Source of the DNA: Desulfosarcina widdelii
Lineage (GTDB): Bacteria; Desulfobacterota; Desulfobacteria; Desulfobacterales; Desulfosarcinaceae
Reading direction: 5' to 3'
DNA: 64,000 nt
Assembly (NCBI RefSeq): GCF_009688965.1
Contig: NZ_AP021875.1
Location: forward strand, 5,642,001 to 5,706,000
Every line of letters begins with the position of its first letter. Within the stretch, counting starts at the first letter, position 1. The notes below the pieces were generated by a model. That model searched no databases and had not been told where the DNA came from. It was given only the letters and a program-made list of their open reading frames with translations. This document shows, one piece after another, positions 32,795-54,483 of this stretch. The position numbers were made by a program, and so were the translations under genes.

Positions 32795-33472
32795 TGATCC
32801 TCCCCAAAATAGAAATGGGAAGGATTACCGAAAAAAGTTCGATTGATCCAGCGTCGGCTCACCCGATGAAGGTGGTCACAATGAAGCGGAATCGGTGGTC
32901 ACAATGTTCCGGAATGGGTGGTCACAATCCAGCGGAATCGATGGACAGTTTGCAGCGGAATGAGTGGTCACAATGCGGCGGAATACGCACCATGGTGTTG
33001 GACAGCCGCCAGGAAAGCACCTTGCGGCTGTGCCAATCCATGATGGCGACCAGGTACATGAACCCACGGTTCATGGGGATATAGGTCAAATCTGTACACC
33101 ACACCTGGTTCGGTCGTTCGATGGTCAGGTTCCTTAACAGGTATGGGTATACCTTATGCTCCGGATGCGGCCGGCTGGTTTTAGGCCGGGGATAAATAGC
33201 CTCCAGGCCCATCAGTCGCATCAGCCGTTGAACATGTTTTCGGTTGATTTTATAGCCCAGCCTGCGCAGATGGTTTCTCATCGACCGTGAGCCCCAGGTG
33301 GGCGTCTTCAGGTACTGTTCGTCGATGAGCCGCATCAACTCCAGGTCCTTAGCCTTAATCGGCTTGGGCCTGTAGTAATGCGAGGATCGTTGGATATTCA
33401 GCAGCCGACACTGCCTGGCAATGCTCAGGTTCGGCGCCTTGGGGTCCACCATCTGCTTCCGCTGCTTGCTGC

Positions 33473-33754
33473 TTAAAGACTGAGCTTTTTGGACAAAAAA
33501 TCGTTTTCGACTTTCAGCTGTCCGATCTGCCGGAATAAATTATCAACCTGGGCTTCATTTTGTTTTCGTGACTTATGGCCTTTGTCGAAAATGTCAGGAG
33601 CGCTGTCAATCAGGGCCCGCCTCCAGTTGTTGATCATCGTTGGATGAATCCCAAACCGGGCAGCCAGTTCAGCAATAGGTTCATTGTTTTGCAGGGCCGC
33701 TAAGGCCACCTTGGCTTTGAACTGTGGAGAATAATTTCTGCGCTTCGTGCTCAT
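33473..33754 (-). CDS. IS3-family orfA (HTH protein)
   Basis: A 93-aa protein starting at 33754 (aaaggagctgatc upstream): MSTKRRNYSPQFKAKVALAA, then a helix-turn-helix with ELAARFGIHPTMINNWRR and a leucine-zipper-like end LFRQIGQLKVENDFLSKKLS. It is the DNA-binding part of the IS3 transposase. The IS4 insertion point lies 29 bp upstream of the start, so its original promoter at the IS3 end is displaced. Confidence 0.88.
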   Translation of the reverse strand: MSTKRRNYSPQFKAKVALAALQNNEPIAELAARFGIHPTMINNWRRALIDSAPDIFDKGHKSRKQNEAQVDNLFRQIGQLKVENDFLSKKLSL

Positions 33755-33783
33755 GATCAGCTCCTTTAAATTTTGGCTGACTC

Positions 33784-35190
33784 CACTCTTGTCCAAAATA
33801 AGTTCTAAGCGGAAGTAGTTCACTGAGCACTTGAAAAAAAGCCCCCTTGTGAGGCATGGTTTAATCGCGACAAAAAACCGTTAGCCAAAACAAGGAGGCA
33901 GACCGATGGTACGACAGGCAAGTCTGTTCAGTCAACTGGTGGCTTTGTTTCATCGCGGACAATTTTTCAACCTGGTTTATCGTCATCAAGCCGAGCGGTA
34001 TGCCAAAGGCTTCAGCAGCTGGGATCATTTCGTAGCCATGCTTTTCTGCCAACTTGCCCAAGCTAAGAGTTTACGCGAAATCTGCGGCGGGCTGTCCTGC
34101 TGCCTGGGAAAACTCCGTCACTTGGGCGTCAAAAAGGCTCCCAACAAATCCACCTTATCCTATGCCAATGCCCATCGCCCCTGGCAGTTGTACCGCGACC
34201 TGTTTTACCAGACCCTTGACACCTGCAAGATGGCGGGGCCGGGCAAACATCGCTTCCGTTTCAAAAACAAGCTCCTGTCGCTGGACAGTTCCACCATCTC
34301 GCTGTGCCTGTCCTTGTTTCCGTGGGCCAAGTTTCGCCGTACCAAAGGTGCCGTGAAACTCCATCTGCTGTTGGATCATGATGGATATCTGCCCACATAC
34401 GCGTACATTTCCAACGGTAAGAAGCACGATGTCACCATCGCCCGCCAGGTCCCGCTGTCCCCTTACTCCATCGTGGCCATGGACCGGGGGTACAATGACT
34501 ACCAGCTGTTTGCCTACTGGACGGAAAACCAGATCTTTTTCGTTACCCGCTTAAAGGACAACGCCGATTACACCGTCGTCGAGACACGCAGTGTGCCCTA
34601 CAACCGCAATATTCTTGCCGATGAACTGATCCGGTTCAACGGCTACTATGCCCAGAAAAGATGCCCGCACCTCCTGCGTAAGGTGGTGGTCTGGGACAAG
34701 GAGCAGAATCGGGAGATCATCCTTTTGACCAACCACATGGATTTGGGCGCCACAACCATATCGGCCATCTACAAAGACCGCTGGCAGATCGAACTGTTTT
34801 TCAAGGCCCTCAAGCAGAATCTGAAAGTGAAAACCTTTGTCGGGACCACTGAGAATGCGCTGTTCATCCAGATTTGGACAGCATTGATCGCCATGCTGCT
34901 GATCAAGTATCTCAGCTTCAAGGCCAAATTCGGCTGGTCGCTGTCGAACCTGGTGGCCTTTCTCCGCTGGAATCTGTTTACTTACCGGGATTTATGGGGC
35001 TGGATTGATCACCCCTTCGATGTTTTTCCGATAAGGCCCGAGTCTGTCCAAAATCTACTTCCCTTCAAAGGTCTTGGACAGCATCAACTGAGAATGGGAA
35101 CCTGATTCTGAATTTGACGGTTTTCAAATACTAAACGGTTGAAATGTCAAAGAGCGATTCCGGATTTCCGGATTATTTTGGACAGCAGTG
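33784..35190 (+). mobile_element. IS4-family insertion sequence, copy 2 (1407 bp)
   Basis: It has the same length and ends as copy 1 (16813-18219) in the opposite orientation. It is flanked by GGCTGACTC on both sides (33775-33783 and 35191-35199), a perfect 9-bp target duplication, and lies inside the IS3 element just upstream of orfA. Confidence 0.92.
33906..35105 (+). CDS. IS4-family transposase, copy 2
   Basis: A 399-aa intact DDE transposase with protein sequence identical to copy 1, including LLSLDSSTISL, IVAMDRGYND and RWQIELFFKALKQNL. An aggaggcag ribosome binding site lies upstream. Sequence identity of the two copies indicates recent transposition within the genome. Confidence 0.92.
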   Translation: MVRQASLFSQLVALFHRGQFFNLVYRHQAERYAKGFSSWDHFVAMLFCQLAQAKSLREICGGLSCCLGKLRHLGVKKAPNKSTLSYANAHRPWQLYRDLFYQTLDTCKMAGPGKHRFRFKNKLLSLDSSTISLCLSLFPWAKFRRTKGAVKLHLLLDHDGYLPTYAYISNGKKHDVTIARQVPLSPYSIVAMDRGYNDYQLFAYWTENQIFFVTRLKDNADYTVVETRSVPYNRNILADELIRFNGYYAQKRCPHLLRKVVVWDKEQNREIILLTNHMDLGATTISAIYKDRWQIELFFKALKQNLKVKTFVGTTENALFIQIWTALIAMLLIKYLSFKAKFGWSLSNLVAFLRWNLFTYRDLWGWIDHPFDVFPIRPESVQNLLPFKGLGQHQLRMGT

Positions 35191-35430: not shown

Positions 35431-36801
35431 TCATTTTAACGGATTGGCACATAACTCCATGAGTTCGCTGATTTCAGCCAGATCTTCAAGACCTTTAATT
35501 GCATAAAATATCTGTCTGGTGTTATCCCTTGACAGAACCGGATAGACCAATCCCTTGAATTTGTTTTTCATTTCCCCAAATGTCATGGGGTTTTCCGGAG
35601 ACCCCTTGGGAACAGGTATCAATCTTTCAAAATTTCTGCCATCTGTTGCGGTGACTGTCACCTTTGTTTCAAAAAGTTTGAAATCGGGATTCAATTTTGT
35701 TTCAACCTTTTTTCTGAAATCGCATAACTGCGGATCATTCAATTTTTCCTCAGTAAACATATGCTGGCCAGCGGAACCGAAAATAAAGGCAAGGGCCGCA
35801 CAGTGGTAAATGCTGAATTTCGCCTCCAATGGGCGTTTAGGTTCCCGGTTGTCTATCACGCTTAAGGGGAGTTCCCCGAGTTCGATCTCTATTTTATGAA
35901 CGTCATCGGCGGTTAAGCGCTCCTTTTCTTTTATCTCTTTTATCGCTTCAATGGTGGAATGCGTAGCCAGGGCCGAGGCATAACGCTTGAAGGCCACATT
36001 GACAATCAGATAATCTGTGCCCAGGCCATACAGCAACTTGTTTTTGTCCGAATCCGGAGCAAAAACATGCGCAAATCCATACCGTCCTTCCAAAATCAAA
36101 TCGGAACTGTCAAATCCCCTTTTTGCCAGGCAGGCCGCCATTACCCCGTCCATTGCGGCTTTTCCCGCGTGAAAGGGCTTGCACATCGTACCAAAGACCT
36201 GGCGCAATCCCGCAATCTGTGTGCCGGCAATTCCAACGGCATTTACGATTTCAGAAAAGTTCAGCTTCAGAAGTTTTGCAGCAGCCGCTGCCGCACCGAA
36301 ACGACCGATGGTTGCCGTCGCATGCCAACCGCGTTGATAGTGTGATAACCCGGCAGCCGCGCCTATCCTCGCTGCGATTTCAAACCCGACCGCAAAGGCG
36401 GCAATAACATCTTTCCCGCTTGCTGCTGCATATTCTCCGGCAGCCATTACTGCGGGTGCGATGCAAACACTCGGATGGATTGAGGATCCGGTAAGCGTAT
36501 CGTCAAAATCGAGTGCGTGTGACATGGAACCGTTGATCAGAGCGGCAAGCACAATATTTGTTCTGACTTGTCTGCCGATAATCGTTGCCTGTTCTTCTCC
36601 TCCCATTTCGCGGATAAAGTCGTAAAGAATCGTACTTATCTCTTCGGTCGACCCGCCCAATGTGACGCCCAACCAATCGAAAATACAAAACTTGACATAC
36701 CTGATAACCTGGGGGGAAAGTTCGGAAAAAGATGTGTTGAAAATGAATCTTGAAAGTTGTCTCGATAGGGTGGTATCCATATTTGGGTGGTTCATGGCCA
36801 T
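35431..36801 (-). CDS. MmgE/PrpD family protein
   Basis: This 456-aa protein is of the 2-methylcitrate dehydratase/cis-aconitate decarboxylase fold. The N-terminal helical part reads VKFCIFDWLGVTLGG, NGSMSHALDFDDT follows (family signature near residue 95), and HPSVCIAPAVMA and GWHATATIGRFGAAAA are the active-site region. I use ATG 36801 (gatgagga upstream); a TTG 27 bp earlier is the only alternative. It is the last gene on the minus strand after the bss accessory genes, 98 bp from the cNMP-binding gene. It might act on a dicarboxylate or tricarboxylate such as fumarate precursors or substituted succinates; this is a guess from family chemistry. Confidence 0.8.
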   Translation of the reverse strand: MAMNHPNMDTTLSRQLSRFIFNTSFSELSPQVIRYVKFCIFDWLGVTLGGSTEEISTILYDFIREMGGEEQATIIGRQVRTNIVLAALINGSMSHALDFDDTLTGSSIHPSVCIAPAVMAAGEYAAASGKDVIAAFAVGFEIAARIGAAAGLSHYQRGWHATATIGRFGAAAAAAKLLKLNFSEIVNAVGIAGTQIAGLRQVFGTMCKPFHAGKAAMDGVMAACLAKRGFDSSDLILEGRYGFAHVFAPDSDKNKLLYGLGTDYLIVNVAFKRYASALATHSTIEAIKEIKEKERLTADDVHKIEIELGELPLSVIDNREPKRPLEAKFSIYHCAALAFIFGSAGQHMFTEEKLNDPQLCDFRKKVETKLNPDFKLFETKVTVTATDGRNFERLIPVPKGSPENPMTFGEMKNKFKGLVYPVLSRDNTRQIFYAIKGLEDLAEISELMELCANPLK

Positions 36802-36899: not shown

Positions 36900-37361
36900 T
36901 TATTGATCGGAGGACGGGTGTGTCACCGGATATGTTAACTTCCGGAGCCGTTTGATCGCGTTCTGAGCGATATTTCTCATGGCGTAAAATCCCATTTCGA
37001 AATCGCTGTAAAACAACTGATTCAGGGCATCGGTCGGTATGCGGACCAGCTTTAATGGTGTCAATGCCTTTGCCTCGGCCTGATATTTCCTTCGGGGGAC
37101 GTTCATCAGCGCGGAGTAGCCGATGATCTCGCCGGGCCCGATGATTTCAGATTTAGCCCTGTTACCGGTGATGCCAGGTACTTCCAGGCTGACCATGCCT
37201 TCCATAATGACAAAGAGGTGAGAAGCTGTGCTTTTCTTTATCGTCACAGATTCTCCCGCATTGTACTCTTTGAATTCAGCTATGGATGATATTTTTTCGC
37301 GCATCGTAGAAGAAAAATCGCCAAAAATATCTATCTGGTTTAAAAAATCCGTTTCGATCAT
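36900..37361 (-). CDS. Cyclic-nucleotide-binding domain protein without HTH
   Basis: This 153-aa protein has one Crp/Fnr-like beta-roll: EYNAGESVTIKKS, HLFVIMEGMVSLEV and IIGPGEIIGYSALM, followed by the C-helix region. It ends after about 150 residues and has no DNA-binding helix-turn-helix, so it cannot be a standard Crp-type regulator. I start at ATG 37361 with aaagga 8 bp upstream, rather than 24 bp earlier. It lies 61 bp after the DUF4125 gene in the bss transcription direction. A sensory or structural subunit of the accessory module is a reasonable inference. The conserved Arg/Ser of true cAMP-binding sites is not evident. Confidence 0.75.
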   Translation of the reverse strand: MIETDFLNQIDIFGDFSSTMREKISSIAEFKEYNAGESVTIKKSTASHLFVIMEGMVSLEVPGITGNRAKSEIIGPGEIIGYSALMNVPRRKYQAEAKALTPLKLVRIPTDALNQLFYSDFEMGFYAMRNIAQNAIKRLRKLTYPVTHPSSDQ

Positions 37362-37422: not shown

Positions 37423-37995
37423 TTATCGAATCTTCTGAAAATTGTTTTCAGCTTGGGCAAGATCGCTGTACCCACCCTTTTTCATCAATTCTAAGAGTGA
37501 TTCCAAAGACAGATTTCGTCTTTTTTTCCATGCCTGTTTTACATGCCGGTAGTAGAGTTCTATTGTGTTGTTGCTGTAAGTTTCGAGTTCGCACTTCAGA
37601 TAAACGGCGAAGTAGCTCCCGTCTTTGGAAGGGTCCATACTGCGCCCCAAACGGCTATATACAGCCGGATACAGATTTCGAATTTCCTCCTGCCATTCTG
37701 TTTCGATGAGGACAATTTCATCTATTAAAGGATTTAAATTCAAAGGCGGGATTAAATCGTCCATCCGAGTATACTTTAGGGTAAGAAGGTTGCGGCCTTT
37801 TGCAAAAGCAATTTTCAAATCCTTCAGGTAGGATCGCAGCATCCGGACCGACCATGTCTCAAAAATACTACTCCGGATCTTTTGGAATTTATCCGGTGAT
37901 GTCTGACAGGAAGCGGGTGTGGCACTTTTCACCTTTTGGAACATGGCCCATTCAATTTCCAATATCTTGTTTATGGTATCTCCGGATTCACCCAT
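37423..37995 (-). CDS. DUF4125-like protein
   Basis: A 190-aa protein starting at ATG 37995, one base after the stop of the VWA gene, so the two are translationally coupled. It has the segment ILEIEWAMFQKVKS, then ASCQTSPDKF and IFETWSVRMLRSYLKDL, which I recognise as the conserved core of the DUF4125 family. The rest is helical and charged (YRHVKQAWKKRRNLS). No function is established for the family to my knowledge. Its location inside a benzylsuccinate synthase operon, after the ATPase/VWA pair, is the interesting part. Confidence 0.65.
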   Translation of the reverse strand: MGESGDTINKILEIEWAMFQKVKSATPASCQTSPDKFQKIRSSIFETWSVRMLRSYLKDLKIAFAKGRNLLTLKYTRMDDLIPPLNLNPLIDEIVLIETEWQEEIRNLYPAVYSRLGRSMDPSKDGSYFAVYLKCELETYSNNTIELYYRHVKQAWKKRRNLSLESLLELMKKGGYSDLAQAENNFQKIR

Positions 37996-37996
37996 A

Positions 37997-39715
37997 TCAA
38001 TTCCACCGGGCATGATTGAGCAGGGACCTGAAGAAATGCGGCAGGTGGTGAACATTATCGACAAACTGGACCAACTTTCCGTATTCCTTCCTTAACGAAC
38101 GCTTATCATCGGGACCGCATCCGATGCCTATCGTCAGGAGGTGAATCTTTTTTCTGATGCAGAATTTCAGTGCTTCGTTCACACCGCAACCCCAATTGGA
38201 TGCACCATCGGTGATATGGATAATAAGTGGTTTCTTACGGGTTTTTTTTAATCTGGTCCCTGTAGCGATAATGGCTTCCCCTGAGGCTGTTTTCCCATGA
38301 GGCAAAACCGTATAAAACCTGCCGTCCGTGTAAAGTTCGGTAAGCAGGCATCGGTCCCGGACTTCGTTGTAGGCGAATATCCGGGCATTTTTATTAAATG
38401 TTTTAGCTACCGAAAATAACGTCTGGTGTATTGTTTCAGTTTGATCCCATTTTGTCGGCTCAGCCATGGAGCCTGACGCGTCCACCAATAATACGATATC
38501 GTTTGCTAGTTCAAATTGATTTTTTTTAAGCTGAAATACCGTACCGGTTGTTGCGGCCCTGTAGAGTTTTCTGCGGTCGATTTTGCCGGCCTTCAATCCC
38601 CGATTGTGAATTGTTTTCCTCTGGGCAGCGGTTTTGATAATCATCTTTAGGCGTTGAAGGAGTTTTTTGTCTACTTTATCCCTTGCCTGCAGAACAATAT
38701 CGCTGCCCTCAACGGTTACAACCTCGTCGGTCTTTTTTACGTTCGACCGGACGGTTTCCGTGAAATCCGAATTTTTTTTCCTAATCGCCTTTTCGATCAG
38801 ATCCTGAAAACTATGAATGACGCTGTTGGCCTCCTGCCCATTGTCATCGGCGTCGCACTCCTCAATATCCTGCCGGGATTCAGGAGACTGGCGAAGCATA
38901 TCCGCACGATCCATGGGCCAGAAACGGATCATTTCGAACAAATTCGGCCAAATCGATGCATAGAGATCCAGGCGGAATTGCCCGCGCTCGGTGACACCGT
39001 TGATTTTGGGGCAGTCTTTTATAAGCCGGTCAGCAATGGAGTTCAACAAGTTCAGGGGTTCTTTGTAAAAGGTTTCAAGTGACACTCCCCGGATCGAAGC
39101 TCCAACGGACGTGTCTTTATATTCATCCCTATATTTTGTTCCGCTTCTATCGGCTGCGATCGCCCACCATATGTAGAGAAGCTCGACAAGTGTCGGCGGC
39201 TGCCAGAATTCTTTGGATTTTTCGGATATTTCCCATTCCCGCGCTTTTTCGGCATAGCGCCCCAGCACGCTCCGGTTCGCGATGGCATCTACATACACTT
39301 TTTCGCAGGTATCGAAAAACAGATCGAAAAACTCGATCTTTGCATGTGTAGTCGATTCCTGAAACCGCAATCCTGCCAACTGCTTGAATCTCTCACTCCA
39401 TTCGGTTTTTATATAAGCGCTCCGGACGGCTTGGCCCACTATAATGTCGGTTTTATAAGCGGGCAGGGGGTATCTGCCTAAGATAGGTCCGGCATCAATT
39501 CCGATCCCATCCTCATAATTCATACCGGCCCAATAGATATTGCCTACGTTCGGTCCGATATAGGAAGCAATCTTTCTTATGGCTACCAGTACTTTTGCAA
39601 GTTCGAGCGCCTCAACGGGGGATTTGTCCCTTCTCCAGAAAGAGGAATACCCGCCCTCCCGTGCAAATCGGAATCTATCTATAACGTCCCTTATATCTGA
39701 ACAAGTTGGGGCCAT
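37997..39715 (-). CDS. VWA-domain protein, NorD/CbbO-like partner of the BssE ATPase
   Basis: A 572-aa protein with a long helical N-terminal region, an acidic stretch (QDIEECDADDNGQEAN) and a C-terminal von Willebrand A domain. The MIDAS motif DASGS starts at Asp412, with Thr/Asp contributions from HGKTASGEA and HITDGASNWG. It starts 3 bp after the bssE stop. MoxR-type ATPase plus VWA protein pairs (NorQ/NorD, CbbQ/CbbO) remodel or activate metalloenzymes and Rubisco. By analogy this pair may assemble, repair or unload the glycyl-radical enzyme; that is inference. Confidence 0.78.
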   Translation of the reverse strand: MAPTCSDIRDVIDRFRFAREGGYSSFWRRDKSPVEALELAKVLVAIRKIASYIGPNVGNIYWAGMNYEDGIGIDAGPILGRYPLPAYKTDIIVGQAVRSAYIKTEWSERFKQLAGLRFQESTTHAKIEFFDLFFDTCEKVYVDAIANRSVLGRYAEKAREWEISEKSKEFWQPPTLVELLYIWWAIAADRSGTKYRDEYKDTSVGASIRGVSLETFYKEPLNLLNSIADRLIKDCPKINGVTERGQFRLDLYASIWPNLFEMIRFWPMDRADMLRQSPESRQDIEECDADDNGQEANSVIHSFQDLIEKAIRKKNSDFTETVRSNVKKTDEVVTVEGSDIVLQARDKVDKKLLQRLKMIIKTAAQRKTIHNRGLKAGKIDRRKLYRAATTGTVFQLKKNQFELANDIVLLVDASGSMAEPTKWDQTETIHQTLFSVAKTFNKNARIFAYNEVRDRCLLTELYTDGRFYTVLPHGKTASGEAIIATGTRLKKTRKKPLIIHITDGASNWGCGVNEALKFCIRKKIHLLTIGIGCGPDDKRSLRKEYGKLVQFVDNVHHLPHFFRSLLNHARWN

Positions 39716-39718
39716 GAT

Positions 39719-40618
39719 CTATTTGCCTTGCTGTTTTTCCGAAACCATTTTTTTTGTAAAGCGTAAGTAATCGAAAGTGTCTTCCGACAAATAGCCTTTT
39801 CCCAAATGTAGGGCAAGAAGGATCGATTCGAGCATTTCCGGATTGGTCTGGAGGCTTGCCGCAACCGCCTGTCTCAAACTTGCTCCAGCGGCTACCATTT
39901 CCCCGATCATCAGGGACGTTCGGGTCGATACTTCCAGCTGGAATTCCGAGTTGCTTCTCAACACGTTGACGACATCAATGATTTTGTCGGCCTGGTTTTC
40001 GGTTATGTCCGTCTTGCGAAGTAAAACTTCCCTTTCGACGTCATTGGGGATATAATCCATAAGGATGATGTAAAAACGGTCCCGCAGCGCCGGATCGAGC
40101 AATTCTGTTCCGACAAATTCCTCTCCTTCATTGAGTGTTGCAAAAAAGACAACACCCTCGGCCACCTCTAAAAGACCCAGCTCATCCATGTATACTTGCC
40201 TGTCATCCGACAGGATGGAAAAGAGCATATTGAGCGCTTTAGGATGTTCCGGCCTGTTAATTTCCTCTAAATGGATCACACAATTGGGGGTTTGCAGTGC
40301 TTGGGGAAAGAGAAATTGTTTATATTCCGTTTCTCCTTCCCGCAAAACATATTCACCAAAAAGCTGTCCCGGCTCGGAAAGAATACCAACCTGAAACGTG
40401 CCCAACGGTTTGTTGAAGGCAGCGGCATATTGTTTCACAAGAGACGATTTGCCGCAGCCCTGTCTTCCTGTTACCAGAACATTGACAGGATGTTTTTTGG
40501 AAATTTGGTGGATTTTTTTCAGAATATCCAATGTTTCATTATTGATGTAAAAAAACGGATCTTCATTTGGAACTGCCAGGTGGGTGATATTTGATTTCAT
40601 GTTCATTGTTTCAACCAT
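39719..40618 (-). CDS. bssE: BssE-like AAA+ ATPase (MoxR/NorQ family)
   Basis: A 299-aa single-domain AAA+ protein. Walker A is GRQGCGKSS (residues 51-59), Walker B is CVIHLEEIN, sensor 1 is FFATLNEG, and the arginine-finger region is DPALRDRF. This matches MoxR/NorQ-type ATPases, including BssE/TutH found downstream of bssB in toluene degraders. I start at ATG 40618 (MVETMNMKSN); an in-frame ATG at 40663 and others at 40606 and 40600 are possible because no strong ribosome binding site is visible. A perfect hairpin lies upstream (40689-40717). The position immediately after bssDCAB fits bssE. Confidence 0.85.
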   Translation of the reverse strand: MVETMNMKSNITHLAVPNEDPFFYINNETLDILKKIHQISKKHPVNVLVTGRQGCGKSSLVKQYAAAFNKPLGTFQVGILSEPGQLFGEYVLREGETEYKQFLFPQALQTPNCVIHLEEINRPEHPKALNMLFSILSDDRQVYMDELGLLEVAEGVVFFATLNEGEEFVGTELLDPALRDRFYIILMDYIPNDVEREVLLRKTDITENQADKIIDVVNVLRSNSEFQLEVSTRTSLMIGEMVAAGASLRQAVAASLQTNPEMLESILLALHLGKGYLSEDTFDYLRFTKKMVSEKQQGK

Positions 40619-40688
40619 AGATAGAAGGGAAATAATTGCCGTAAACCGGGGGAAACCCTGCACGGTGTCCTTCGGAACGGATAGTGTG

Positions 40689-40717
40689 GTCCCTGGCGGC
40701 TCATAGCCGCCAGGGAC
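40689..40717 (-). promoter_or_regulatory. Intercistronic hairpin between bssB and bssE
   Basis: GTCCCTGGCGGC and GCCGCCAGGGAC form a perfect 12-bp GC-rich stem around the loop TCATA. No U-run follows on either strand, so it is less likely a terminator than a stability or processing element that could keep bssDCAB mRNA more abundant than the downstream accessory genes. Confidence 0.6.
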
Positions 40718-40783
40718 AGGAATGTAATCGCGGTGCGGGAGGCATCGAGATTATGATAATGATACAGATACGAGTGGAATCAG

Positions 40784-41011
40784 TTACACATGATCACGGA
40801 AACTGAGTTCACCTTCATCATATTTCGGACAGGTCATATTATAACGGTCGTTTATCATTCGTTGCCAAATGGCGCCTTCATTGGTACGTGATACCGTGCA
40901 TTGCCCCCTTGAGGGGTCGGTTGGATTGGCTATCTGCCATTTACATTTTACACACGGCTTTTTTGTTCCCTCTTCCAGACGCATTGCGATAGGGGATTTT
41001 GGGAATTCCAT
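40784..41011 (-). CDS. bssB: Benzylsuccinate synthase beta subunit-like Fe-S protein
   Basis: This 75-aa small subunit has four cysteines (Cys20, Cys23, Cys38 and Cys61) in the arrangement CVKCKWQ, GQCTVSRT and NMTCPKYDEG. BssB-type subunits bind one [4Fe-4S] cluster with a HiPIP-like fold and control access to the BssA active site. An aaaggagag ribosome binding site lies 7 bp before the start. It lies 135 bp downstream of bssA on the same strand, the order found in bssDCAB operons. The chain is close to the usual length of about 80 aa. Confidence 0.85.
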   Translation of the reverse strand: MEFPKSPIAMRLEEGTKKPCVKCKWQIANPTDPSRGQCTVSRTNEGAIWQRMINDRYNMTCPKYDEGELSFRDHV

Positions 41012-41146
41012 AAACGATCTCTCCTTTCTTTCGGCCTACAGCCGATTTGAACCTGCAGCCGTGTGCCGCGTCGCCCATCTTAGCTCCGGTTCTTTTGCAT
41101 GGGTTGCCGTCCGGCTGCGAGCAAACGGCTGCTGTTTTTATACGGG

Positions 41147-43726
41147 TTAATTATCGGCAAATTCAACACCCAATTCGTCAAAGTCGTAGGGGCCGAAGGT
41201 CTGCTCGTTTCGGGCGATGATTGTATTTTGACCGTAGGTGGAAACATCCACAAACCGTGCGCTGAAACCAGCGACCCGTACGATCAGATCTCCGTGTTTT
41301 TCAGGCTCTTTCTGCGCGGCTCTCATTTCTTCCGTACTGACGCAATTGAACTGGACATGATCACACTTCAGATCGCACCATGTTTTCATGTAGGCATGCC
41401 AGATATCGAAACCATGTGTACTTCTCATCAACGGAACCGATAGACGCTGATTGAGCAAGTTAAACTTTTGGGTTTCTGAATCAACTTTGGATACGGACTT
41501 GATAACCGCAGTGGGTCCCTTTGTATCCGTGCCCGCCATGGGTGAAATACCGCCGTCATCGCATGCCTCGCCGCCGTATCTTCCGTCGGGCGTCGGGCCG
41601 GTGCGGGCACCGATGAACAGATAGGCGCCAACGGCCTGGCCGCCCGGCATGGGATGGGCACCGGAATAGTTGGTGATTTCTTTGAATTTTCCGGCGAAAA
41701 TCTCCTCGTATACCCGTTTTACTATTTCATCCGCATAATCATCGTCATTGCCCCATTTCGGCGCATCCTTGAAGTCTTTATGCATCTCCTCATAACCTTC
41801 CCAGTTTGCGTGCAGGGCTTCGATCAATTCGTCCATGGTGTATTTCTTGTCGTCATAGATCAATTTTTTGCATGCGATGAGAGAGTTGCAGGCAACGATA
41901 TTGGTCATGCAGTTGTGCCAGGGATTGGCGAGTTCGCTCAAGACCATGGCATCGACGCCCTTTTCCATACACCCGTCATCAAGGCTGGATACGAAAGGCA
42001 ACTGGCAGTAATGGCCCTGAAAATGGCGGGTGACGTCCTTGGCTCTCCATACCAGATCCGAGCAATAACCAAACTGAGTTTTAAACGCCTCAAAAAGTTC
42101 TTCAAAAGTCTGAAACTCTCTCGGGTCTCCCGTTTTGGGTCCCAGCTGCATGTCCGAATGTGACCAGTCATACCCGTCGCTGAGCGTAATCTCAAACATC
42201 TTGGCGGGCAACAGGGATCCGCCGCCCTCGGTTCTGGCCTTTTGGGTCTTTCTGCGCCCGACATGTCCCGGAGACATGCAGAGCTGGAGGGCCCAGTCCC
42301 TGGCTTCCTCCAGAGTGGCACCGAAATTTTTCTGAAGTTGCTCTATGGCAATTTCATCGTTCTTTATGGACGGATAGCCCAGTCCGTCCCGCACGCATTC
42401 AAACACCTTCCGCTTGGTTTTTTCCCTGCCGATTTTGTTCCACCGAAATCCTATGGAAGGTTCCGTCGTACGGATGTTTTTGGCGGCATCCAAGATTGCG
42501 TCGGTCATGTCGTTGCATCCATCCGTGCCATCAACATTCACCCCACCGAGGGTCAGAATGAAAAGGTCGTTCGACCCCGGAAAGGCCTCTCTGTAAGCCC
42601 GGTTTTTACCGCAACCATGCTCGGAGACCTTCAACCTTTCACACTCAACGAGTTCAACCGCATCTTCGTATGTCATGGGTTGGAAGGATTTGTCGATCAC
42701 ACTCGTTTTGTAATAGGGGTACAGGAGCTTATCCTCTTTATGGGCGTATCCGCTGGCATAATTTTCCAGTGAATGGCTTATCAGGTAGGTAAACCATTTT
42801 GCCTGCATGGCGTCTCTCAATCCTTTCGCCGGTTCAGCGGGCATACGGTGGCAGATGCCGGCGATCTCAATCAGTTCTTCTTGACGCTTGGGATCGGTCT
42901 CAAAATTCTCGGCTACGATCTTACAGAGCCGACCGTGCCTTCTGGCCCATGAGATCACAGCCTTGTCTGCGATGATCATTGCGTCCCAATTGTCGATTTT
43001 TTCCATTAGTGGAAGCCGTTGTGGCGCGTTCCAGGCGGGCGACTGCATTTCATTCATTGCATTTTGCTTGTTTTGTTCCGCAATTTCAATTCGTTTGAGC
43101 AAGCCGTCTTCGAGAACGGTCTCGTAAGGCGGGCATACGCTGTTGTAGGCATTGGCGAAAGCCGGCGGTTCCATGGTGGTAAATTGGTACATCTGCAACA
43201 ACTCTTCCTGGGTAAAATAGCGTTGACCCAACGCCTGAATGCTGTGGTCTTTCCAATATTCGTTGTATTCAATGGCTTCTTCCTTTTCTTCGGGACAGTT
43301 TCGGCTTTGGATATAATCCGCTACGGTCATGTATGATGTCTCGGGATACAGCGGGATTTTATCCGGATGCTCCGCGTTGAAGCCGACAATGAATTCATCC
43401 TCTTGAAGCACCAGTGTGCACTTGTTCAGAAGGTTTGCCAGCGCATGCGCCCTACGGATTGCGTTGGGCATCCCCACGGTTTGCTTGTGGGACTCGGTAA
43501 AGTAGCGCATCCGTTCAATACCAGCTTTAAGATTCGGATCGACAAATTCACCGGCGGCTGTATGTTTGAAGCGGCACCGAGCCTTTAATCGCTTCGTCCT
43601 CTCAGTGCTGGGCCGACTGAGCGTTTCGCACAACTCTTCCGTAGGAACGTTTAGTTCTTCCGGATATTCGGGCGGGAATTCAATTACTTTCCCCTTGTAT
43701 TCAATTGCTTCTGCAACTCTTGCCAT
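41147..43726 (-). CDS. bssA: Benzylsuccinate synthase-type glycyl radical enzyme, alpha subunit
   Basis: An 859-aa glycyl-radical enzyme. The active-site cysteine is Cys483 in LCMSPGHVGRRKTQKARTEG, which is the benzylsuccinate/alkylsuccinate synthase form and not the pyruvate formate-lyase form. The radical glycine is Gly820 in RVAGFSARFVDVS. The spacing of 337 residues agrees with known BssA proteins. It adds a methyl or benzylic carbon to fumarate. The start has aaaggaggc upstream. bssC lies upstream and bssB downstream. The substrate could be toluene, a xylene or cresol, or 2-methylnaphthalene (NmsA); phylogeny would be needed to decide. Confidence 0.93.
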   Translation of the reverse strand: MARVAEAIEYKGKVIEFPPEYPEELNVPTEELCETLSRPSTERTKRLKARCRFKHTAAGEFVDPNLKAGIERMRYFTESHKQTVGMPNAIRRAHALANLLNKCTLVLQEDEFIVGFNAEHPDKIPLYPETSYMTVADYIQSRNCPEEKEEAIEYNEYWKDHSIQALGQRYFTQEELLQMYQFTTMEPPAFANAYNSVCPPYETVLEDGLLKRIEIAEQNKQNAMNEMQSPAWNAPQRLPLMEKIDNWDAMIIADKAVISWARRHGRLCKIVAENFETDPKRQEELIEIAGICHRMPAEPAKGLRDAMQAKWFTYLISHSLENYASGYAHKEDKLLYPYYKTSVIDKSFQPMTYEDAVELVECERLKVSEHGCGKNRAYREAFPGSNDLFILTLGGVNVDGTDGCNDMTDAILDAAKNIRTTEPSIGFRWNKIGREKTKRKVFECVRDGLGYPSIKNDEIAIEQLQKNFGATLEEARDWALQLCMSPGHVGRRKTQKARTEGGGSLLPAKMFEITLSDGYDWSHSDMQLGPKTGDPREFQTFEELFEAFKTQFGYCSDLVWRAKDVTRHFQGHYCQLPFVSSLDDGCMEKGVDAMVLSELANPWHNCMTNIVACNSLIACKKLIYDDKKYTMDELIEALHANWEGYEEMHKDFKDAPKWGNDDDYADEIVKRVYEEIFAGKFKEITNYSGAHPMPGGQAVGAYLFIGARTGPTPDGRYGGEACDDGGISPMAGTDTKGPTAVIKSVSKVDSETQKFNLLNQRLSVPLMRSTHGFDIWHAYMKTWCDLKCDHVQFNCVSTEEMRAAQKEPEKHGDLIVRVAGFSARFVDVSTYGQNTIIARNEQTFGPYDFDELGVEFADN

Positions 43727-43824
43727 GGTATGTGCCTCCTTTTGGTTATTCGGGATATCAGTATTAAACTAAGGTGTTGGAAAGCCAAACTTCAAGGCTT
43801 CTCTCCAGCCTGACGATTGATCCA

Positions 43825-44001
43825 TTATCCTCTTTGTGAATAGCTTTTGCACGCCTCGCCGGCCCCATACACAGGTTTTGAAAGCCAAAACTTCCCCTTT
43901 TCGTCTTTGTGTTCAGTAACGCAGTCACCCTTATCGGGCTCATAATCGTCGGCATCATTCGGAACAGCAAAAAATTGGGAACATTTTTTACACGTAGCCA
44001 T
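43825..44001 (-). CDS. bssC: Benzylsuccinate synthase gamma subunit-like Fe-S protein
   Basis: A 58-aa protein starting at ATG 44001 with an excellent gaggaggaaatt ribosome binding site; an in-frame start 57 bp upstream has none and would add a tail not found in the family. Four cysteines (Cys4, Cys7, Cys27 and Cys51), with MATCKKCSQFF at the N-terminus and GEACKSY near the end, provide one [4Fe-4S] site. BssC binds BssA distantly from the active site and is thought to be needed for stable assembly. The length equals the 58-60 aa of known BssC. Its place between bssD and bssA is the standard order. Confidence 0.85.
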   Translation of the reverse strand: MATCKKCSQFFAVPNDADDYEPDKGDCVTEHKDEKGKFWLSKPVYGAGEACKSYSQRG

Positions 44002-44102
44002 AATTTCCTCCTCTAATTTAAATACGGTTTGGTAAATAATTGATCGGAATTCACGCATTTTAAGATGCCTCCCGTGTGATACGGCGGCATTCGATTAAGA
44101 AT

Positions 44103-45092
44103 TTAGAGCACCACCTCCTTTTTAAATGATTTTTTATGTCCATCACCACCGATACCGACCAATCCGCCAACAGTAAGATTTGGAACTCCCGTTTTCTTTA
44201 AGCTGTTGATCAGAGGCCACAGATCCTTCCCGGGAATTTGCCCAATATCCTTAAATTTGTAGGTATCATAACTATTAAGAGCCGAATATTTCGCTTCTCC
44301 ATATACATGATAGGGCAGAACATCTATTCCTGTGAGATTTTTTGCAAACTTTCCCAGATATGATACGTAAGCCTCAAAATCTTCCGTGGAATTGTTAAAC
44401 CCTGGAATGATCGGCAAGTGGATTCGGATGTTTGCGTTGGATTTTATTAGGGTTTCAATGTTTTGCAAGATAGGTTTCAGCTGCCATCCGAGGACGTCTT
44501 TATGTTTTTGGGGATTCAGTGATTTGATGTCCACAAGAAATAAATCGACATACGGCAACAGCGGTTCGATTTTTTCCCATTTCTGAAAGCAGCTTGTTTC
44601 GAGGCCGACGTGGATCTTTTCAGCCTTTAACCGCTTTGTTATTTCAAGGGTGAACTCCGGAAAAAGCAATGGGTCGCCACCACTGAGGGTAACTCCGCCC
44701 CCGCTGTTTTTAAAAAAAGGCAAATCGGCCGCGGCTTCCTTGATAATTGCATCCATCGGCAGGTCTTTCCCGACCGTGACTCTGGCACCGGGTATACATG
44801 CGTCAACACATTTAAGGCATCTGTTACATTTAGACCGGTCAAGTTTCAAGACAGGTTCATTCTGAGGACCGGTTATCATGACCGATGCCCCTGTCGGGCA
44901 CACCTCGACGCACCGGCCACAGCTAACGCACTTGTCGGCATAGAAATAAAACTCTTTTTCGCGATTCTGGGTTTCCGGGTTGTGGCACCACGGACAGTGC
45001 AACGGACAACCCTTGACGAATATCGTAGTCCGGATGCCCGGGCCATCTTGCAGGGAGAATCGTTGAATTTCCGTTATGAGGGGAGTTTGCAT
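44103..45092 (-). CDS. bssD: Benzylsuccinate synthase activase (radical SAM glycyl-radical-activating enzyme)
   Basis: A 329-aa radical SAM activase. CxxxCxxC is formed by Cys29, Cys33 and Cys36 in KGCPLHCPWCHN. The two inserted ferredoxin-type sites are Cys55/58/61/65 and Cys89/92/95/99, as in activases of glycyl-radical decarboxylases and BSS. TLSGGDPLLFPE is the SAM-binding GGE-like motif. I use ATG 45092 because the open frame further upstream (to 45290) runs through a good promoter (45161-45190) and has no homology to activases. It generates the radical on Gly820 of BssA. Confidence 0.9.
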   Translation of the reverse strand: MQTPLITEIQRFSLQDGPGIRTTIFVKGCPLHCPWCHNPETQNREKEFYFYADKCVSCGRCVEVCPTGASVMITGPQNEPVLKLDRSKCNRCLKCVDACIPGARVTVGKDLPMDAIIKEAAADLPFFKNSGGGVTLSGGDPLLFPEFTLEITKRLKAEKIHVGLETSCFQKWEKIEPLLPYVDLFLVDIKSLNPQKHKDVLGWQLKPILQNIETLIKSNANIRIHLPIIPGFNNSTEDFEAYVSYLGKFAKNLTGIDVLPYHVYGEAKYSALNSYDTYKFKDIGQIPGKDLWPLINSLKKTGVPNLTVGGLVGIGGDGHKKSFKKEVVL

Positions 45093-45561: not shown

Positions 45562-46815
45562 ATGACTGATAATGGGAAGCGGGAAAAAATACTATTGGCT
45601 GCAAGAGAAATACTGACGGCAAAAGGCCTTAAGGACTCGACTATTTCTGAGATAGCCAGGGAAGCGGGGGTCGTTGACTCCCTTATATATCATTATTTCA
45701 AAAATAAGGAAGATTTGCTTTTTTATACAGTCGAGCGGGAGTTTGAAGCCGTCAATAGGGAGCTAAGCTTCCAATTTAAGGGGATCATAGGTCCTGTCTC
45801 AAAACTGGGTAAAATGATATGGTTCCATCTTTCCCTGAATGATGAGCACGATCAAAAAGTCCGAATTCTGAAGAATTTGCTGTTTGAGAGCCGGTCATAC
45901 AAGAATTTTTACAATCACGAAGGCTATCAGTCGCTTAGAAGATATATAAAGGTATTGGTTAATATTATCAGGCAAGGCATCGAGGAGGGCTTTTTTGAGG
46001 AAAATTTAAATATTACGGTCGTAAGGGACATGATATTTGGATTACTGGATGAGGAATCCATTAGTTGTATCGGATGTGGAGATGTAGAAAAAACATTACC
46101 TGATTTTGACGATATCATGAAACTGGTTCTCAGCATGATTGTCCGAATTCCGAAAATACCGGTAAGAGTCAGCAATAAACGTCATAAGGCTCGGTCCATT
46201 CTGTATGCTTCCAAGGATGTTTTTGCGAAAAAGGGCTTCAACAGTTCCACTGTAGGAGAAATTGCCAGTCTTTCCGACGTATCAGAGGGCACGATTTACG
46301 AATATTACAAGAATAAAGATGATCTTCTTTTCAGTATTTCGGAATATTTCATCAAGAACCAATACATGGATTTCGAGGACCTATTTAAAAAGGATGATCC
46401 GCTATTGAGATTTAAATGCTTCACGGGATATTATTTTTATTCATTTCTCCAGGACCCCCAGTTTCTAACAATTTATCTTCGTGATATAAGACTAAACAAA
46501 AAATTTCTCTCTGATTATTATTACAAAAATTTCAGATCCCACGTTAACTACCTGGAAAAAATTTTGGATGACGGCAAATCGAGAGGTCATTTTAAACCGG
46601 AAATCAACAATAGAATTTTTATAAACCTTTTTATCGGAGCATTTACTCATATCGCGATGAGATGGTTGAATCTGGGCCGAACGGGTGCTATTGAAATGTT
46701 CGTTGAGCTGAACCAGCTGACGACGCTTCTTACCCGTGCGCTTACTGCCGAGAGCCAGCCGTTAAAAATGGGAGATAGATTGATAAATAATCAGGAGGAG
46801 ATGCTTGCTCAATAG
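45562..46815 (+). CDS. Tandem (double) TetR-family transcriptional regulator
   Basis: A 417-aa protein made of two complete TetR units. The first DNA-binding domain (residues 5-55) has TISEIAREAGVVDSLIYHYF. The second (about 207-255) has TVGEIASLSDVSEGTIYEYY. Each is followed by a helical ligand-type domain. Normal TetR proteins are about 200 aa and dimerise, so this is a fused pair that could act as a single-chain pseudo-dimer or bind two sites. An acaggagaag ribosome binding site precedes ATG 45562. Divergent from bssD, it is the obvious candidate regulator of the bss and bbs operons; the ligand (CoA ester or aromatic acid) is unknown. Confidence 0.88.
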   Translation: MTDNGKREKILLAAREILTAKGLKDSTISEIAREAGVVDSLIYHYFKNKEDLLFYTVEREFEAVNRELSFQFKGIIGPVSKLGKMIWFHLSLNDEHDQKVRILKNLLFESRSYKNFYNHEGYQSLRRYIKVLVNIIRQGIEEGFFEENLNITVVRDMIFGLLDEESISCIGCGDVEKTLPDFDDIMKLVLSMIVRIPKIPVRVSNKRHKARSILYASKDVFAKKGFNSSTVGEIASLSDVSEGTIYEYYKNKDDLLFSISEYFIKNQYMDFEDLFKKDDPLLRFKCFTGYYFYSFLQDPQFLTIYLRDIRLNKKFLSDYYYKNFRSHVNYLEKILDDGKSRGHFKPEINNRIFINLFIGAFTHIAMRWLNLGRTGAIEMFVELNQLTTLLTRALTAESQPLKMGDRLINNQEEMLAQ

Positions 46816-46908
46816 GCTCCCATTAAGAATCAAATAATTTCAGTTGAATATATCCGATATCAATCCTGATAAACACATATTGGAAAATCTTAACGGAGGG
46901 TTGTGCAG

Positions 46909-47442
46909 GTGATTATTGACGAATTGGCTTCATGGTATGTTTTTATTTTCTGTAAGGAATATTTTGATCGTCCAGCAGACCCAGGATCCTATATTATGTA
47001 TAATAATAAGAGGCTTACAAATAAGGAGTATCTTGAGCACTGGGGTAAGTGGGTATTTCTCGTTCATACGGAAAATGTTAGGGAAATGGCTGATAAGCTC
47101 GATCCCTATGTGGAGAATAAGTCGATTCCGTGTATCAAATATGACCGTAAACCACAGAAGTTTTTCAGGCTAGAGGAATGCGTTTTTTGTGTTTATTGCG
47201 ATGACAGGCAAAGAGATGAAGTGTGGAAAATTATTGAGAGTCAAGGTGTAAAAGGCCGAGCCTGGACGTATGAACGCGAAGTGATCAGTAAATGGATGCC
47301 GGGTGGATTGAACATGGAGCGTTGGCTGAAATATCATAATACTTCAGGAGAAGAAGCAGAAAAGATCAGAAAGGATGCCCGAATGAGGCTTGGACAATTT
47401 TATAACAATCCGGATGACCCCTGTATGGGGTGGGCACAGTAA
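46909..47442 (+). CDS. Unrecognised 177-aa protein with a cysteine cluster
   Basis: I do not recognise the family. I start at GTG 46909, with ggaggg 8 bp upstream; a GTG at 46903 is too close to that site. The protein is rich in aromatic and charged residues (HWGKWVFLVHTENVREMADK), with a CVFCVYCDD segment (three cysteines spaced C-x2-C-x2-C) around residue 105 and a conserved-looking WMPGGLNMERWLKYH near the end. It has no signal peptide or membrane segment. It lies between the tandem TetR gene and a MoaD-like gene (12 bp spacing), so it is probably a partner of the MoaD/E1-like pair in sulfur transfer, protein modification or cofactor work. Confidence 0.7.
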   Translation: MIIDELASWYVFIFCKEYFDRPADPGSYIMYNNKRLTNKEYLEHWGKWVFLVHTENVREMADKLDPYVENKSIPCIKYDRKPQKFFRLEECVFCVYCDDRQRDEVWKIIESQGVKGRAWTYEREVISKWMPGGLNMERWLKYHNTSGEEAEKIRKDARMRLGQFYNNPDDPCMGWAQ

Positions 47443-47454
47443 GGGGATCGATAA

Positions 47455-47727
47455 ATGGCTATCGTCTTGTTTGCAGGTGAATTGCGCAAGCTTGTAAATG
47501 GCCGGGATGAAGTGAGGATTTCAGCCGGTGATATCCAAGCTTGTATTAATATTTTGGCAAAAACTTATCCCCGTGTAAAAAAAACGGTTTATGACAAAAA
47601 CGGCGAATTATCCGACTCGATCAATATCTATATCAATGGTGATAATATCCGCGGACTTAACGGCATTTCGTCTACATTAAGGGAAACGGATGAAGTAAAT
47701 ATTATGTCCGGTTTTGCCGCTGGATGA
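47455..47727 (+). CDS. MoaD/ThiS-like ubiquitin-fold protein
   Basis: A 90-aa beta-grasp protein: IVLFAGELRKLVNG at the N-terminus, SINIYINGDNIRGLNGI, and a C-terminal DEVNIMSGFAAG. The end is typical of sulfur carriers in position and flexibility but reads Ala-Gly instead of Gly-Gly. Family members are adenylated at the C-terminal glycine by an E1-like enzyme and carry thiocarboxylate sulfur (molybdopterin, thiazole, tungsten cofactor) or conjugate to proteins. The next gene encodes such an enzyme. Spacing to the upstream gene is 12 bp (aaggggatcg as ribosome binding site). Confidence 0.82.
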   Translation: MAIVLFAGELRKLVNGRDEVRISAGDIQACINILAKTYPRVKKTVYDKNGELSDSINIYINGDNIRGLNGISSTLRETDEVNIMSGFAAG

Positions 47728-47734
47728 GGATGTC

Positions 47735-48499
47735 GTGATTACCAAGTCCGAAAGAAGAAGATATGATCGGCAGATCAGGCTCTCCGGTTTTGGCATCGGG
47801 GGGCAGGAAAAACTTAAGCAGTCCATTATGTTAATTGCCGGGGCCGGTGGGCTGGGTTCCCCTATGGCAATGTATTTGGCGTCTGCGGGTGTGGGTACTA
47901 TCCGGATTGTCGATGATGATCATATCAAATTAAGCAATTTAAACAGACAGCTTCTTTATACCATTGATGATATCGGAAAGAATAAGGCGGACACCGCAAA
48001 AGAAAAGCTCGTCACAATGAATCGCAGCATTCGAATTGAAGCTGTAAATGCAACGATTTCGAGTCATAATATTCGACAATTGGTTGAGCAATGTGAGCTT
48101 ATTTTGGATGCAACGGACAATTTTCGTGCCAGATATATATTAAATGAGGCTGCGATAAAAACGAAGATTCCTTTTATATATGGCGGCATCTACGGTTTCG
48201 AAGGCGCTCTGACGACAATCATCCCGGGGAAGACCCCCTGCCTAAGGTGTATTTTTAAAAATCATCGGTTATCTCCAGAGACCCCTCCCGTGCTTGGCGT
48301 CGTGCCTGGAGCGATTGGCTGTCTCCAGGCGCTGGAGGCAATTAAATATGCAACAGGAATTGGGAGACTATTAACAAACCGGTTATTGATATTTAACGGT
48401 ATCAGTATGAAATTTAGCGAGTTAAGACTAAAACGCGATCCTGACTGTTCTGATTGTTCCGGAATGACATCATCAGCCGAGGATGCAGCCCTTGGGTAA
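47735..48499 (+). CDS. E1-like adenylyltransferase (ThiF/MoeB/HesA family)
   Basis: A 254-aa E1-like enzyme. The N-terminus has RYDRQIRLSGFGIGGQEKL (family signature). GAGGLGSPMAMYLASAGVG binds nucleotide, DDDHIKLSNLNRQ and ATDNFRARYILNEA form the adenylation site, and two CxxC pairs (PCLRC and CSDC) form the structural zinc site of MoeB/ThiF. The start is uncertain. I choose GTG 47735 just after the MoaD-like stop, with gagga upstream; a TTG at 47714 would overlap that gene. It should adenylate the C-terminus of the preceding protein. It has no rhodanese domain, so a separate sulfur donor would be needed. Confidence 0.85.
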   Translation: MITKSERRRYDRQIRLSGFGIGGQEKLKQSIMLIAGAGGLGSPMAMYLASAGVGTIRIVDDDHIKLSNLNRQLLYTIDDIGKNKADTAKEKLVTMNRSIRIEAVNATISSHNIRQLVEQCELILDATDNFRARYILNEAAIKTKIPFIYGGIYGFEGALTTIIPGKTPCLRCIFKNHRLSPETPPVLGVVPGAIGCLQALEAIKYATGIGRLLTNRLLIFNGISMKFSELRLKRDPDCSDCSGMTSSAEDAALG

Positions 48500-52252: not shown

Positions 52253-52378
52253 GGGGGATTACCGATCGAATAAGCTGAGTTACTTTAATTATATCGGCTA
52301 ATGTGGTTGACAATTCTGAACCGGTGAAAATGGACATACACATATAACATGGACACATTATATTAAGGAGCCTTCAAA

Positions 52379-54452: not shown

Positions 54453-54483
54453 TAAGTGGGCTTTTGATAGGGTTAAAATAATA

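Follow-up and report, generated by a model that had tools for sequence, protein, structure and literature searches.

The benzylsuccinate synthase (bss) operon of Desulfosarcina widdelii, which lies in a 64,000-nucleotide stretch of a 7.3-Mb single-contig genome (this whole stretch is called the window here), continues past the genes of benzylsuccinate synthase (BSS) into a series of accessory genes. We read this series as comprising one known remodelling pair, the MoxR-type AAA+ ATPase BssE and the VWA protein BssF, and separately recruited accessories, and not as a four-part machine. The accessories are a DUF4125 protein, which is also found beside other glycyl radical enzymes, and a cyclic-nucleotide-type (cNMP) fold protein, which follows the benzylsuccinate pathway. 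A sequence-only reading of this DNA had proposed that all four proteins may assemble, reactivate or regulate the oxygen-sensitive enzyme, an interpretation that is partly supported as a whole.

The genes run on the minus strand in the order bssD, bssC, bssA, bssB, bssE, bssF, DUF4125, cNMP-fold and MmgE/PrpD, ending at 35431, and each of them scores above the cut-off of at least one Pfam family. Coordinates and Pfam matches thus bear out every gene that had been named; the range assigned to the module, 37423-45092, leaves the cNMP gene outside, and the MmgE/PrpD gene on the same strand had been overlooked.

44103..45092, minus strand: bssD, glycyl-radical activating enzyme (radical SAM); ATG at 45092; Radical_SAM 63.9 bits (cut-off 29.5)
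43825..44058, minus strand: bssC, gamma subunit; PF08201 BssC_TutF 93.5 bits (cut-off 25), 7.9e-27; start at 44001 or 44058
41147..43726, minus strand: bssA, catalytic glycyl radical subunit, 859 aa; PF02901 and PF01228
40784..41011, minus strand: bssB, beta subunit; PF18512 BssB_TutG 126 bits (cut-off 25.6), 5.3e-37
40689..40717, minus strand: strong hairpin between bssB and bssE; stem of 13 pairs, loop of 3 bases, not followed by a T run
39719..40600, minus strand: bssE, MoxR/NorQ/CbbQ-type AAA+ ATPase; AAA_5, CbbQ_C; NorQ match 4.3e-15
37997..39715, minus strand: bssF, VWA protein, 572 aa, with complete metal-ion-dependent adhesion site (MIDAS); PF00092
37423..37995, minus strand: DUF4125 protein, 190 aa, assigned to bssG; PF13526 186.5 bits (cut-off 25), 5.8e-55
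36900..37361, minus strand: cNMP-fold protein without a helix-turn-helix (HTH), 153 aa; PF00027 49 bits (cut-off 27.5), 6.1e-13; ATG at 37361
35431..36801, minus strand: MmgE/PrpD-family protein; PF03972 1.5e-74
51593-62812 and beyond, plus strand: bbs-type operon; Pfam matches

The bssE/bssF pair

The genes bssE and bssF are already known: bssDCABEF is described as common to all sequenced toluene degraders, with bssE and bssF encoding AAA+ and VWA proteins of uncertain function, and in Magnetospirillum 15-1 reverse-transcription PCR products span all bss intergenic regions (PMC7285207; this and the other papers are cited from excerpts). BssE of the window matches AAA_5 (68.8 bits, cut-off 22; 6.2e-19) and CbbQ_C (27.3 bits, cut-off 20.6; 4.4e-06), and its Walker A motif, read by eye, is GRQGCGKS. 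Besides NorQ, its PDB sequence matches include midasin (2.8e-22), CbbQ/NorQ (2.7e-11) and CobS. BssF barely passes the cut-off of the VWA family (24.6 bits against 23.8). The residues that we read as its MIDAS, D412, S416, T476 and D503, are invariant in 39 of 39 BssF sequences, and the intact MIDAS with Asp412 that had been read from the letters is thereby upheld. When the AlphaFold model of BssF (mean pLDDT 79.9, pTM 0.51) was used in a fold search, the top PDB match was NorD of the NorQD complex (9qhg_G, E 3.6e-6), while a BssF profile had no match below E 0.03 among PDB sequences. BssE is cited as essential, and disruption of bssF in Azoarcus CIB abolishes growth on toluene, possibly by a polar effect on downstream genes including bssG (PMC5874301). 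Taken together, the family, PDB and fold matches and this disruption make a MoxR AAA+/VWA pair acting on the glycyl-radical enzyme the best reading, as had been suggested.

The pair shares with NorQ/NorD and CbbQ/CbbO the combination of AAA_5 with CbbQ_C, a VWA domain with full MIDAS and gene adjacency; it differs in the 572 residues of BssF and in its putative target, a glycyl radical enzyme. When GTDB species genomes were searched with a BssF profile, 41 loci emerged, and a BssE match is present in 36 of the 41 stretches around BssF. The window follows the order bssDCAB, bssE, bssF, bssG of the bssDCABEFG(H)IJKL operon of Aromatoleum, Azoarcus and Magnetospirillum, but has in addition the cNMP-fold and MmgE/PrpD genes, not found in the Aromatoleum stretches fetched. 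The clusters that we label nms-type (Desulfonema magnum, NaphS2 and others) also carry activase-bssE-bssF and then DUF4125, with BssF 51-58% identical to that of the window. They differ from it in a mostly shorter glycyl radical enzyme (811-821 aa where the open reading frame (ORF) is clean), often in having two activases, and in a beta subunit that is absent or scores 22-23 bits only. In trees of BssA, BssF and DUF4125 the window proteins stand on long branches and in no well-supported small group, and the trees were not used.

Two departures from the common arrangement were seen. In the bss clusters of Syntrophobacteraceae (L105, L106) the order is swapped to bssF-bssE and DUF4125 is set apart, and in one genome (G307; L214 10236-15819, minus strand) bssA, bssE and bssF are each broken into two or three ORFs, by decay or assembly error.

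DUF4125 and DUF4037 in and outside bss clusters

DUF4125 stands right behind bssF in 17 of the 41 loci and at another place of the fetched stretch in 8; it is absent from the stretch in 16, all of which extend more than 3 kb behind bssF. The distance is within 30 bases in 15 of the 17 and 213 bases in L113; in L112 the called DUF4125 ORF begins inside bssF and its true start is not set. The 17 loci comprise all six of Aromatoleum, Herminiimonas sp. CN, three other proteobacterial metagenome-assembled genomes (MAGs), the Geobacteraceae MAG L113 and six sulfate-reducer-type loci. The gene after bssF in Azoarcus/Aromatoleum bears the name bssG (PMC7285207, PMC5874301). Published primers for bssG of Magnetospirillum 15-1 translate, in one frame each, to MFSQVR and LDEGRN, near DUF4125 motifs, and those for bssJ to VGVFE and APYFKW, which are DUF4037 motifs; other frames score lower, or similarly for one primer. 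The length reported for BssJ, 307 aa (PMC5874301), agrees with that of DUF4037 in L139 and L140. By synteny in Aromatoleum and primer motifs, we therefore assign bssG to DUF4125, a named gene of unknown function, and bssJ to DUF4037, identifications that we did not find in print. DUF4125 is accordingly not a previously undescribed partner, as the sequence-only reading had supposed.

Among 242 genomes of the same order, BssF (E <= 1e-20) is present in 29, three weak matches (G001, G018, G165; E ~6e-4 to 8e-4) having been removed from 32. DUF4125 is present in 31 of the 242, together with BssF in 21 and in 10 of the 213 genomes without BssF (Fisher p 1.4e-16, uncorrected for kinship), and the 21 genomes represent 11 of the 14 BssF-bearing families. 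The 41 loci reduce to 34 genomes, since L110, L125, L126, L127, L130, L136 and L141 share genomes by accession prefix; DUF4125 occurs in 30 of them and DUF4037 in 26.

We also collected 33 DUF4125 stretches without BssF (3.7 to 20 kb, some ended by contig ends, several from genomes with BssF on another contig). DUF4037 accompanies DUF4125 in 18 of them, in three cases within a single ORF; five have the large subunit of a glycyl radical enzyme, and two an activase alone. In L089, from a genome without BssF match, the enzyme is 4-hydroxyphenylacetate decarboxylase (HPAD; 1580 bits, cut-off 1150), accompanied by its activase; at 7558-9082 (plus strand) the called DUF4125 ORF overlaps the end of the activase ORF. 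L216 and L217 have PFL2-type enzymes above the TIGR01774 cut-off with activase and DUF4037-DUF4125, and in L226 DUF4125 is flanked by two PFL2-like enzymes, both below all cut-offs. The fifth, a sulfopropanediol-dehydratase-like gene in L081, lies ~9 kb off on the opposite strand and, though counted, was not used as support. Since DUF4125 has other glycyl radical enzymes as neighbours where bssEF is lacking, and since it is absent in some BssF carriers (4 of 34 genomes, and 4 of 5 in the Geotalea family described below), it is neither bssEF-specific nor essential, and the tie to bssEF that had been proposed for it does not hold. It is better described as an accessory common to some glycyl radical enzymes than as a part of a BssEF machine. 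A general role with these enzymes is not proven, however, because enzyme or activase appears in just 7 of the 33 stretches. We did not find the occurrence of DUF4125/DUF4037 with other glycyl radical enzymes in print.

The most faithful partner of DUF4125 is DUF4037, found in 27 of the 242 genomes, 24 of which also have DUF4125; the single ORFs that carry both come from three genomes (L086-L088). In the genome of the window, unlike the Aromatoleum operon with its bssJ, no DUF4037 was detected at E <= 0.001. The limonene enrichment MAG LiM6 is reported to express LrcL/LrcM (DUF4125/DUF4037), whose operon encodes BssE as well; it is a ring-cleavage operon, and the excerpt proposes no function for them (PMC12583861). 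Sequence kinship between the two families was rejected (hhalign probability 0.1%). The model of DUF4125 is all-helical (mean pLDDT 95.4), and 13 positions are invariant over 40 sequences, among them E15, R41, N69, K74, Y75, P110, Y132 and E136, with C30-Q31 nearly invariant. Its fold matched no PDB structure at E <= 0.001 (best E 0.28), HEPN was not named among the best 50 of 117 matches, and the DUF4125 profile had no match below E 0.1 among PDB sequences. The DUF4037 profile gave nothing useful there. DUF4037 has an invariant G-S...D-H-D stretch, in keeping with the nucleotidyltransferase signature. A survey lists it together with the HEPN-like C-terminal region of aminoglycoside nucleotidyltransferases (PMC3710099). 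A search of a plasmid collection returned one Fusobacterium record without annotation, from which nothing was gained.

The cNMP-fold protein, the MmgE/PrpD gene and the surrounding region

The cNMP-fold protein marks the pathway closely: within the two genome sets searched, its close orthologues accompany only BssF of the bss/nms type, in five of seven such genomes of one set and four of five of the other. The profile used to find it was built on four sequences, that of the window, one from Geotalea and two from Desulfosarcina cetonica. The domain as such matches in 217 of the 242 genomes of the order and 43 of the 48 of the Geotalea family, most of the matches presumably being ordinary CRP-type domains, which means little, and it is the gaps in score that separate the orthologues. 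In the order, five genomes carry copies above 190 bits (next score 124), and all five are among the seven whose BssF is at least 49% identical to that of the window (hypergeometric p 3e-9, or 1e-7 without the window's own genome; post hoc threshold, kinship uncorrected). In the other four genomes the cNMP gene lies on the same strand as, and 0 or 1 gene after, a homologue of the bbs gene at 62813, which closes the bbs-type operon. The second set is the family of Geotalea SG265 (48 genomes), in which five carry BssF once the weak match in G306 (24.7 bits) is dropped from six. Four of its genomes have cNMP copies above 148 bits (next 62), all among these five (p 3e-5, or 2e-4 without the genome feeding the profile; again with a post hoc threshold), and their cNMP gene, at a distance of 1.5-3.5 kb to bssF, has a homologue of the bbs gene at 55611 next to it. 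The one BssF genome of this family without the cNMP gene is the one with DUF4125.

Far above chance, DUF4125 and cNMP genes recur at bss loci of other genomes, and restriction of the two genes to bss in this strain, which would have refuted the sequence-only reading, is rejected. It is not supported that the cNMP protein goes with bssEF: its gene adjoins bbs genes in 8 of 12 copies (window, L190, L107, L136, L186-L189, L114, L210, L211, L214), in all of which the ORF is intact. On the fetched contigs, both Desulfosarcina cetonica copies have a bssF no more than 5 kb away, the L107 copy lying on the opposite strand and the L136 copy behind DUF4125 and DUF4037. No orthologue at this score level was found in the Aromatoleum stretches fetched. 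A second copy in the window's own genome (L190 9743-10192), 9.7 kb past the window end, is an intact ORF of 149 aa; it lies downstream of genes for a FadL/TodX porin, a TRAP transporter and a DJ-1/PfpI protein.

The window protein has the PF00027 domain of cyclic-nucleotide receptors but lacks the C-terminal HTH of CRP/FNR transcription factors; no HTH family was matched in the copies of the window, L107, L136, L187 and L190, and the absence of a DNA-binding part, as first read, is confirmed. Cyclic-nucleotide receptors of the CRP/PKA type have a Glu and an Arg in the phosphate-binding cassette. In all nine aligned copies F, Y, I or V stands where this Glu would be, and the cassette has no Arg that is conserved over the nine, though the window copy has PRRK near the place of PKA's PRA. 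Since the usual contacts are not conserved, the protein likely binds a ligand other than a cyclic nucleotide, as far as residues can tell. Its top match among PDB sequences is 3mdp (1.1e-07), to which the Geotalea copy aligns end to end (E 9e-76), that copy being 28% identical to the window protein. We take 3mdp to be Gmet_1532 of Geobacter metallireducens. On this assumption its gene would adjoin bbsABCD, located at Gmet_1528-1531 (PMC1924859). In the literature searched, in part judged by title, we found no description that ties the cNMP-fold protein or 3mdp to bss or benzylsuccinate.

The MmgE/PrpD gene is an overlooked candidate pathway gene. Its relatives lie between bssF and DUF4125 in NaphS2 (L118, 61% identical), right behind the homologue of the bbs gene at 62813 and two genes before DUF4037-DUF4125 in Desulfotignum (L228, 54%), and near bssD in Desulfosarcina cetonica (L110, 53%). 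The family includes dehydratases and an epimerase of succinate derivatives, and it is our guess that the protein may act on benzylsuccinate-type compounds. A tie of the PrpD family to this pathway was not found in print, although no search was aimed at PrpD.

Within the operon, one base separates the bssF TGA from the DUF4125 ATG at 37995, as had been noted before, 61 bases lie between the DUF4125 stop and the cNMP start, and 98 between the cNMP gene and the PrpD start. A scan of the gaps from bssF to PrpD gave no minus-strand terminator-like site, and the promoter-like matches on that strand (38000-37973, 37389-37360) are at chance level, with a scan total of 16 against 13.5 expected. The bssE start at 40600 was chosen over 40606 and 40618. 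The hairpin upstream of it, in a 120-base gap with a minimum free energy of -39.2 (z -4.0), could be a processing or stability element. BssA matches PFL-like PF02901 with 537.9 bits (5.4e-161) and Gly_radical PF01228 with 89.5 bits (2.4e-25); BssD reaches 482 bits with the NCBIfam equivalog TIGR04003, slightly below its cut-off of 496, and 344 bits with TIGR02494 (cut-off 174).

By Pfam, the bbs-type operon contains OB/zinc-ribbon and thiolase genes, two short-chain dehydrogenases, two family III CoA-transferases, an acyl-CoA dehydrogenase, an enoyl-CoA hydratase and an electron transfer flavoprotein gene; the gene at 62813, truncated by the window end, has no Pfam match in the portion inside the window. 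Divergent from bssD (45562-46815, plus strand) is a regulator with two TetR_N stretches within one 417-aa protein. Desulfosarcina cetonica has a 50% identical relative of it, placed between PrpD and bssD (L110 2819-4066), and Desulfonema magnum a 43% identical one (L186 1-810). In the window the regulator is followed (46903-48499, plus strand) by genes for a 179-aa protein without Pfam match, a small MoaD/ThiS-like protein (by eye) and a ThiF-family protein; relatives of the 179-aa protein (41%) and of ThiF are adjacent, just 5' of the cNMP gene, in Desulfosarcina cetonica L136. Many insertion sequences occupy 28922-35105 and 49621-51180, with an IS4-family transposase at 33906-35105 recognized by its family model and the rest by eye, and this richness may explain why the genome has no DUF4037 gene.

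Possible roles of the accessory proteins

We tentatively favour, at somewhat below an even chance, a layered model in which BssEF is a remodeller of BSS, BssG an auxiliary and the cNMP-fold protein a pathway sensor; what we show of it is the order of the genes, their families, the MIDAS, the recurrence and the identities of bssG and bssJ, and what we infer is the target of BssEF, the beta-subunit step, the adaptor role and the cNMP ligand. BssE and BssF, a pair of the NorQD/CbbQO kind, would work on BSS itself, pulling the alpha subunit or prising the small beta subunit off so that the activase BssD reaches the buried glycine, after which the beta subunit would return for catalysis. The beta subunit inhibits BSS activation yet is required for catalysis (PMC10239695), a conflict that an ATP-driven remodeller could solve in the cell. 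BssG would be an auxiliary of several glycyl radical enzymes, perhaps a substrate adaptor where it stands behind bssF, and the cNMP-fold protein would sense a pathway compound and act by protein contact without DNA binding. With more doubt, one may go further and suppose that DUF4125 (BssG), alone or with the nucleotidyltransferase-like DUF4037 (BssJ), has a fold not seen before and maintains glycyl radical enzymes in general, benzylsuccinate-type synthases as well as HPAD and PFL2-type enzymes, a NorQD-like motor being coupled to it in hydrocarbon degraders, and that the HTH-less cNMP protein no longer binds cyclic nucleotides and is dedicated to sensing a metabolite for the benzylsuccinate pathway of sulfate- and iron-reducers.

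A number of observations weigh against the layered model. BSS has been made in E. coli with TutH (BssE), BssF and BssG not being named in the excerpt (PMC10239695), no AAA+/VWA pair is named in the excerpt on the mas cluster of HxN1 (PMC12358834), and growth on toluene survives disruption of bssJ, that is DUF4037 (PMC5874301). In the fold search with BssF, integrin I domains and VWF A3 came just behind NorD (E 7e-6 to 7e-5), and because such plain VWA domains rank so closely behind, the rank of NorD supports the VWA fold more than kinship with NorD. DUF4125 is missing from 8 of the 29 BssF genomes of the order and, genome-wide, from the 4 of 34 already mentioned, three of which are labelled MAG while Geotalea SG265 is not. 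In the Geotalea family the single BssF genome with DUF4125 (G303) has it on another contig, and three genomes without BssF carry it. Finally, 26 of the 33 DUF4125 stretches without BssF show neither glycyl radical enzyme nor activase, including all five from Bacillota (L218, L220, L222, L223, L224).

The same pair might instead serve repair: when oxygen or radicals have damaged BSS, BssE, BssF and BssG would rescue it by pulling out subunits that are cleaved or inhibited, as CbbQO probably does for Rubisco. The cleavage of active BSS at the radical site by oxygen (PMC7285207), the CbbQ_C match of BssE and the position of DUF4125 next to other glycyl radical enzymes are in line with this; but disruption of bssF stops anaerobic growth on toluene (PMC5874301), which indicates a basal need rather than repair alone, and we regard this role as distinctly improbable. 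Insertion or repair of the [4Fe-4S] clusters of BssB and BssC, with BssG helping the apo-subunits, seems to us rather unlikely. Such clusters are present in both small BSS subunits (PMC10239695), NorQD drives metal (iron) insertion into NO reductase (PMC13036017) and NorD heads the fold matches of BssF, whereas the BSS made in E. coli with TutH, no BssF being named, was activatable and active in vitro (PMC10239695), so that BssF is seemingly not strictly needed for cluster insertion there.

Other explanations concern the accessories. DUF4125 and DUF4037 could be a nucleotidyltransferase-type pair of anaerobes whose task is unrelated to glycyl radical enzymes and which merely shares gene islands with them, as the fidelity of DUF4037 to DUF4125 (24 of 27 DUF4037 genomes, one ORF in three), the 26 stretches mentioned above, several of them ended by contig ends, and the dispensability of bssJ would allow. 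We think this unlikely, given that in 17 of 41 loci, across Pseudomonadota, sulfate- and iron-reducing lineages, DUF4125 is the gene right behind bssF, and that it is also found beside HPAD and PFL2-type enzymes. For the cNMP-fold protein, the lack of HTH and of conserved canonical contacts would suit a decaying CRP-type regulator without a function of its own. Twelve intact ORFs out of twelve and the tight bss/bbs linkage in two genome sets speak against decay, which we consider highly improbable.

The beta subunit blocks the activation of BSS and yet is needed for catalysis, which makes the switching-on of the enzyme in the cell a puzzle, and bssE and bssF, though known, are still unexplained. 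The family identities of BssG and BssJ, their place beside other glycyl radical enzymes and the relative of the cNMP-fold protein among known structures, 3mdp, make defined proteins, open to experiment, out of genes of 'unknown function', with a possible use in the production of these enzymes in other hosts.

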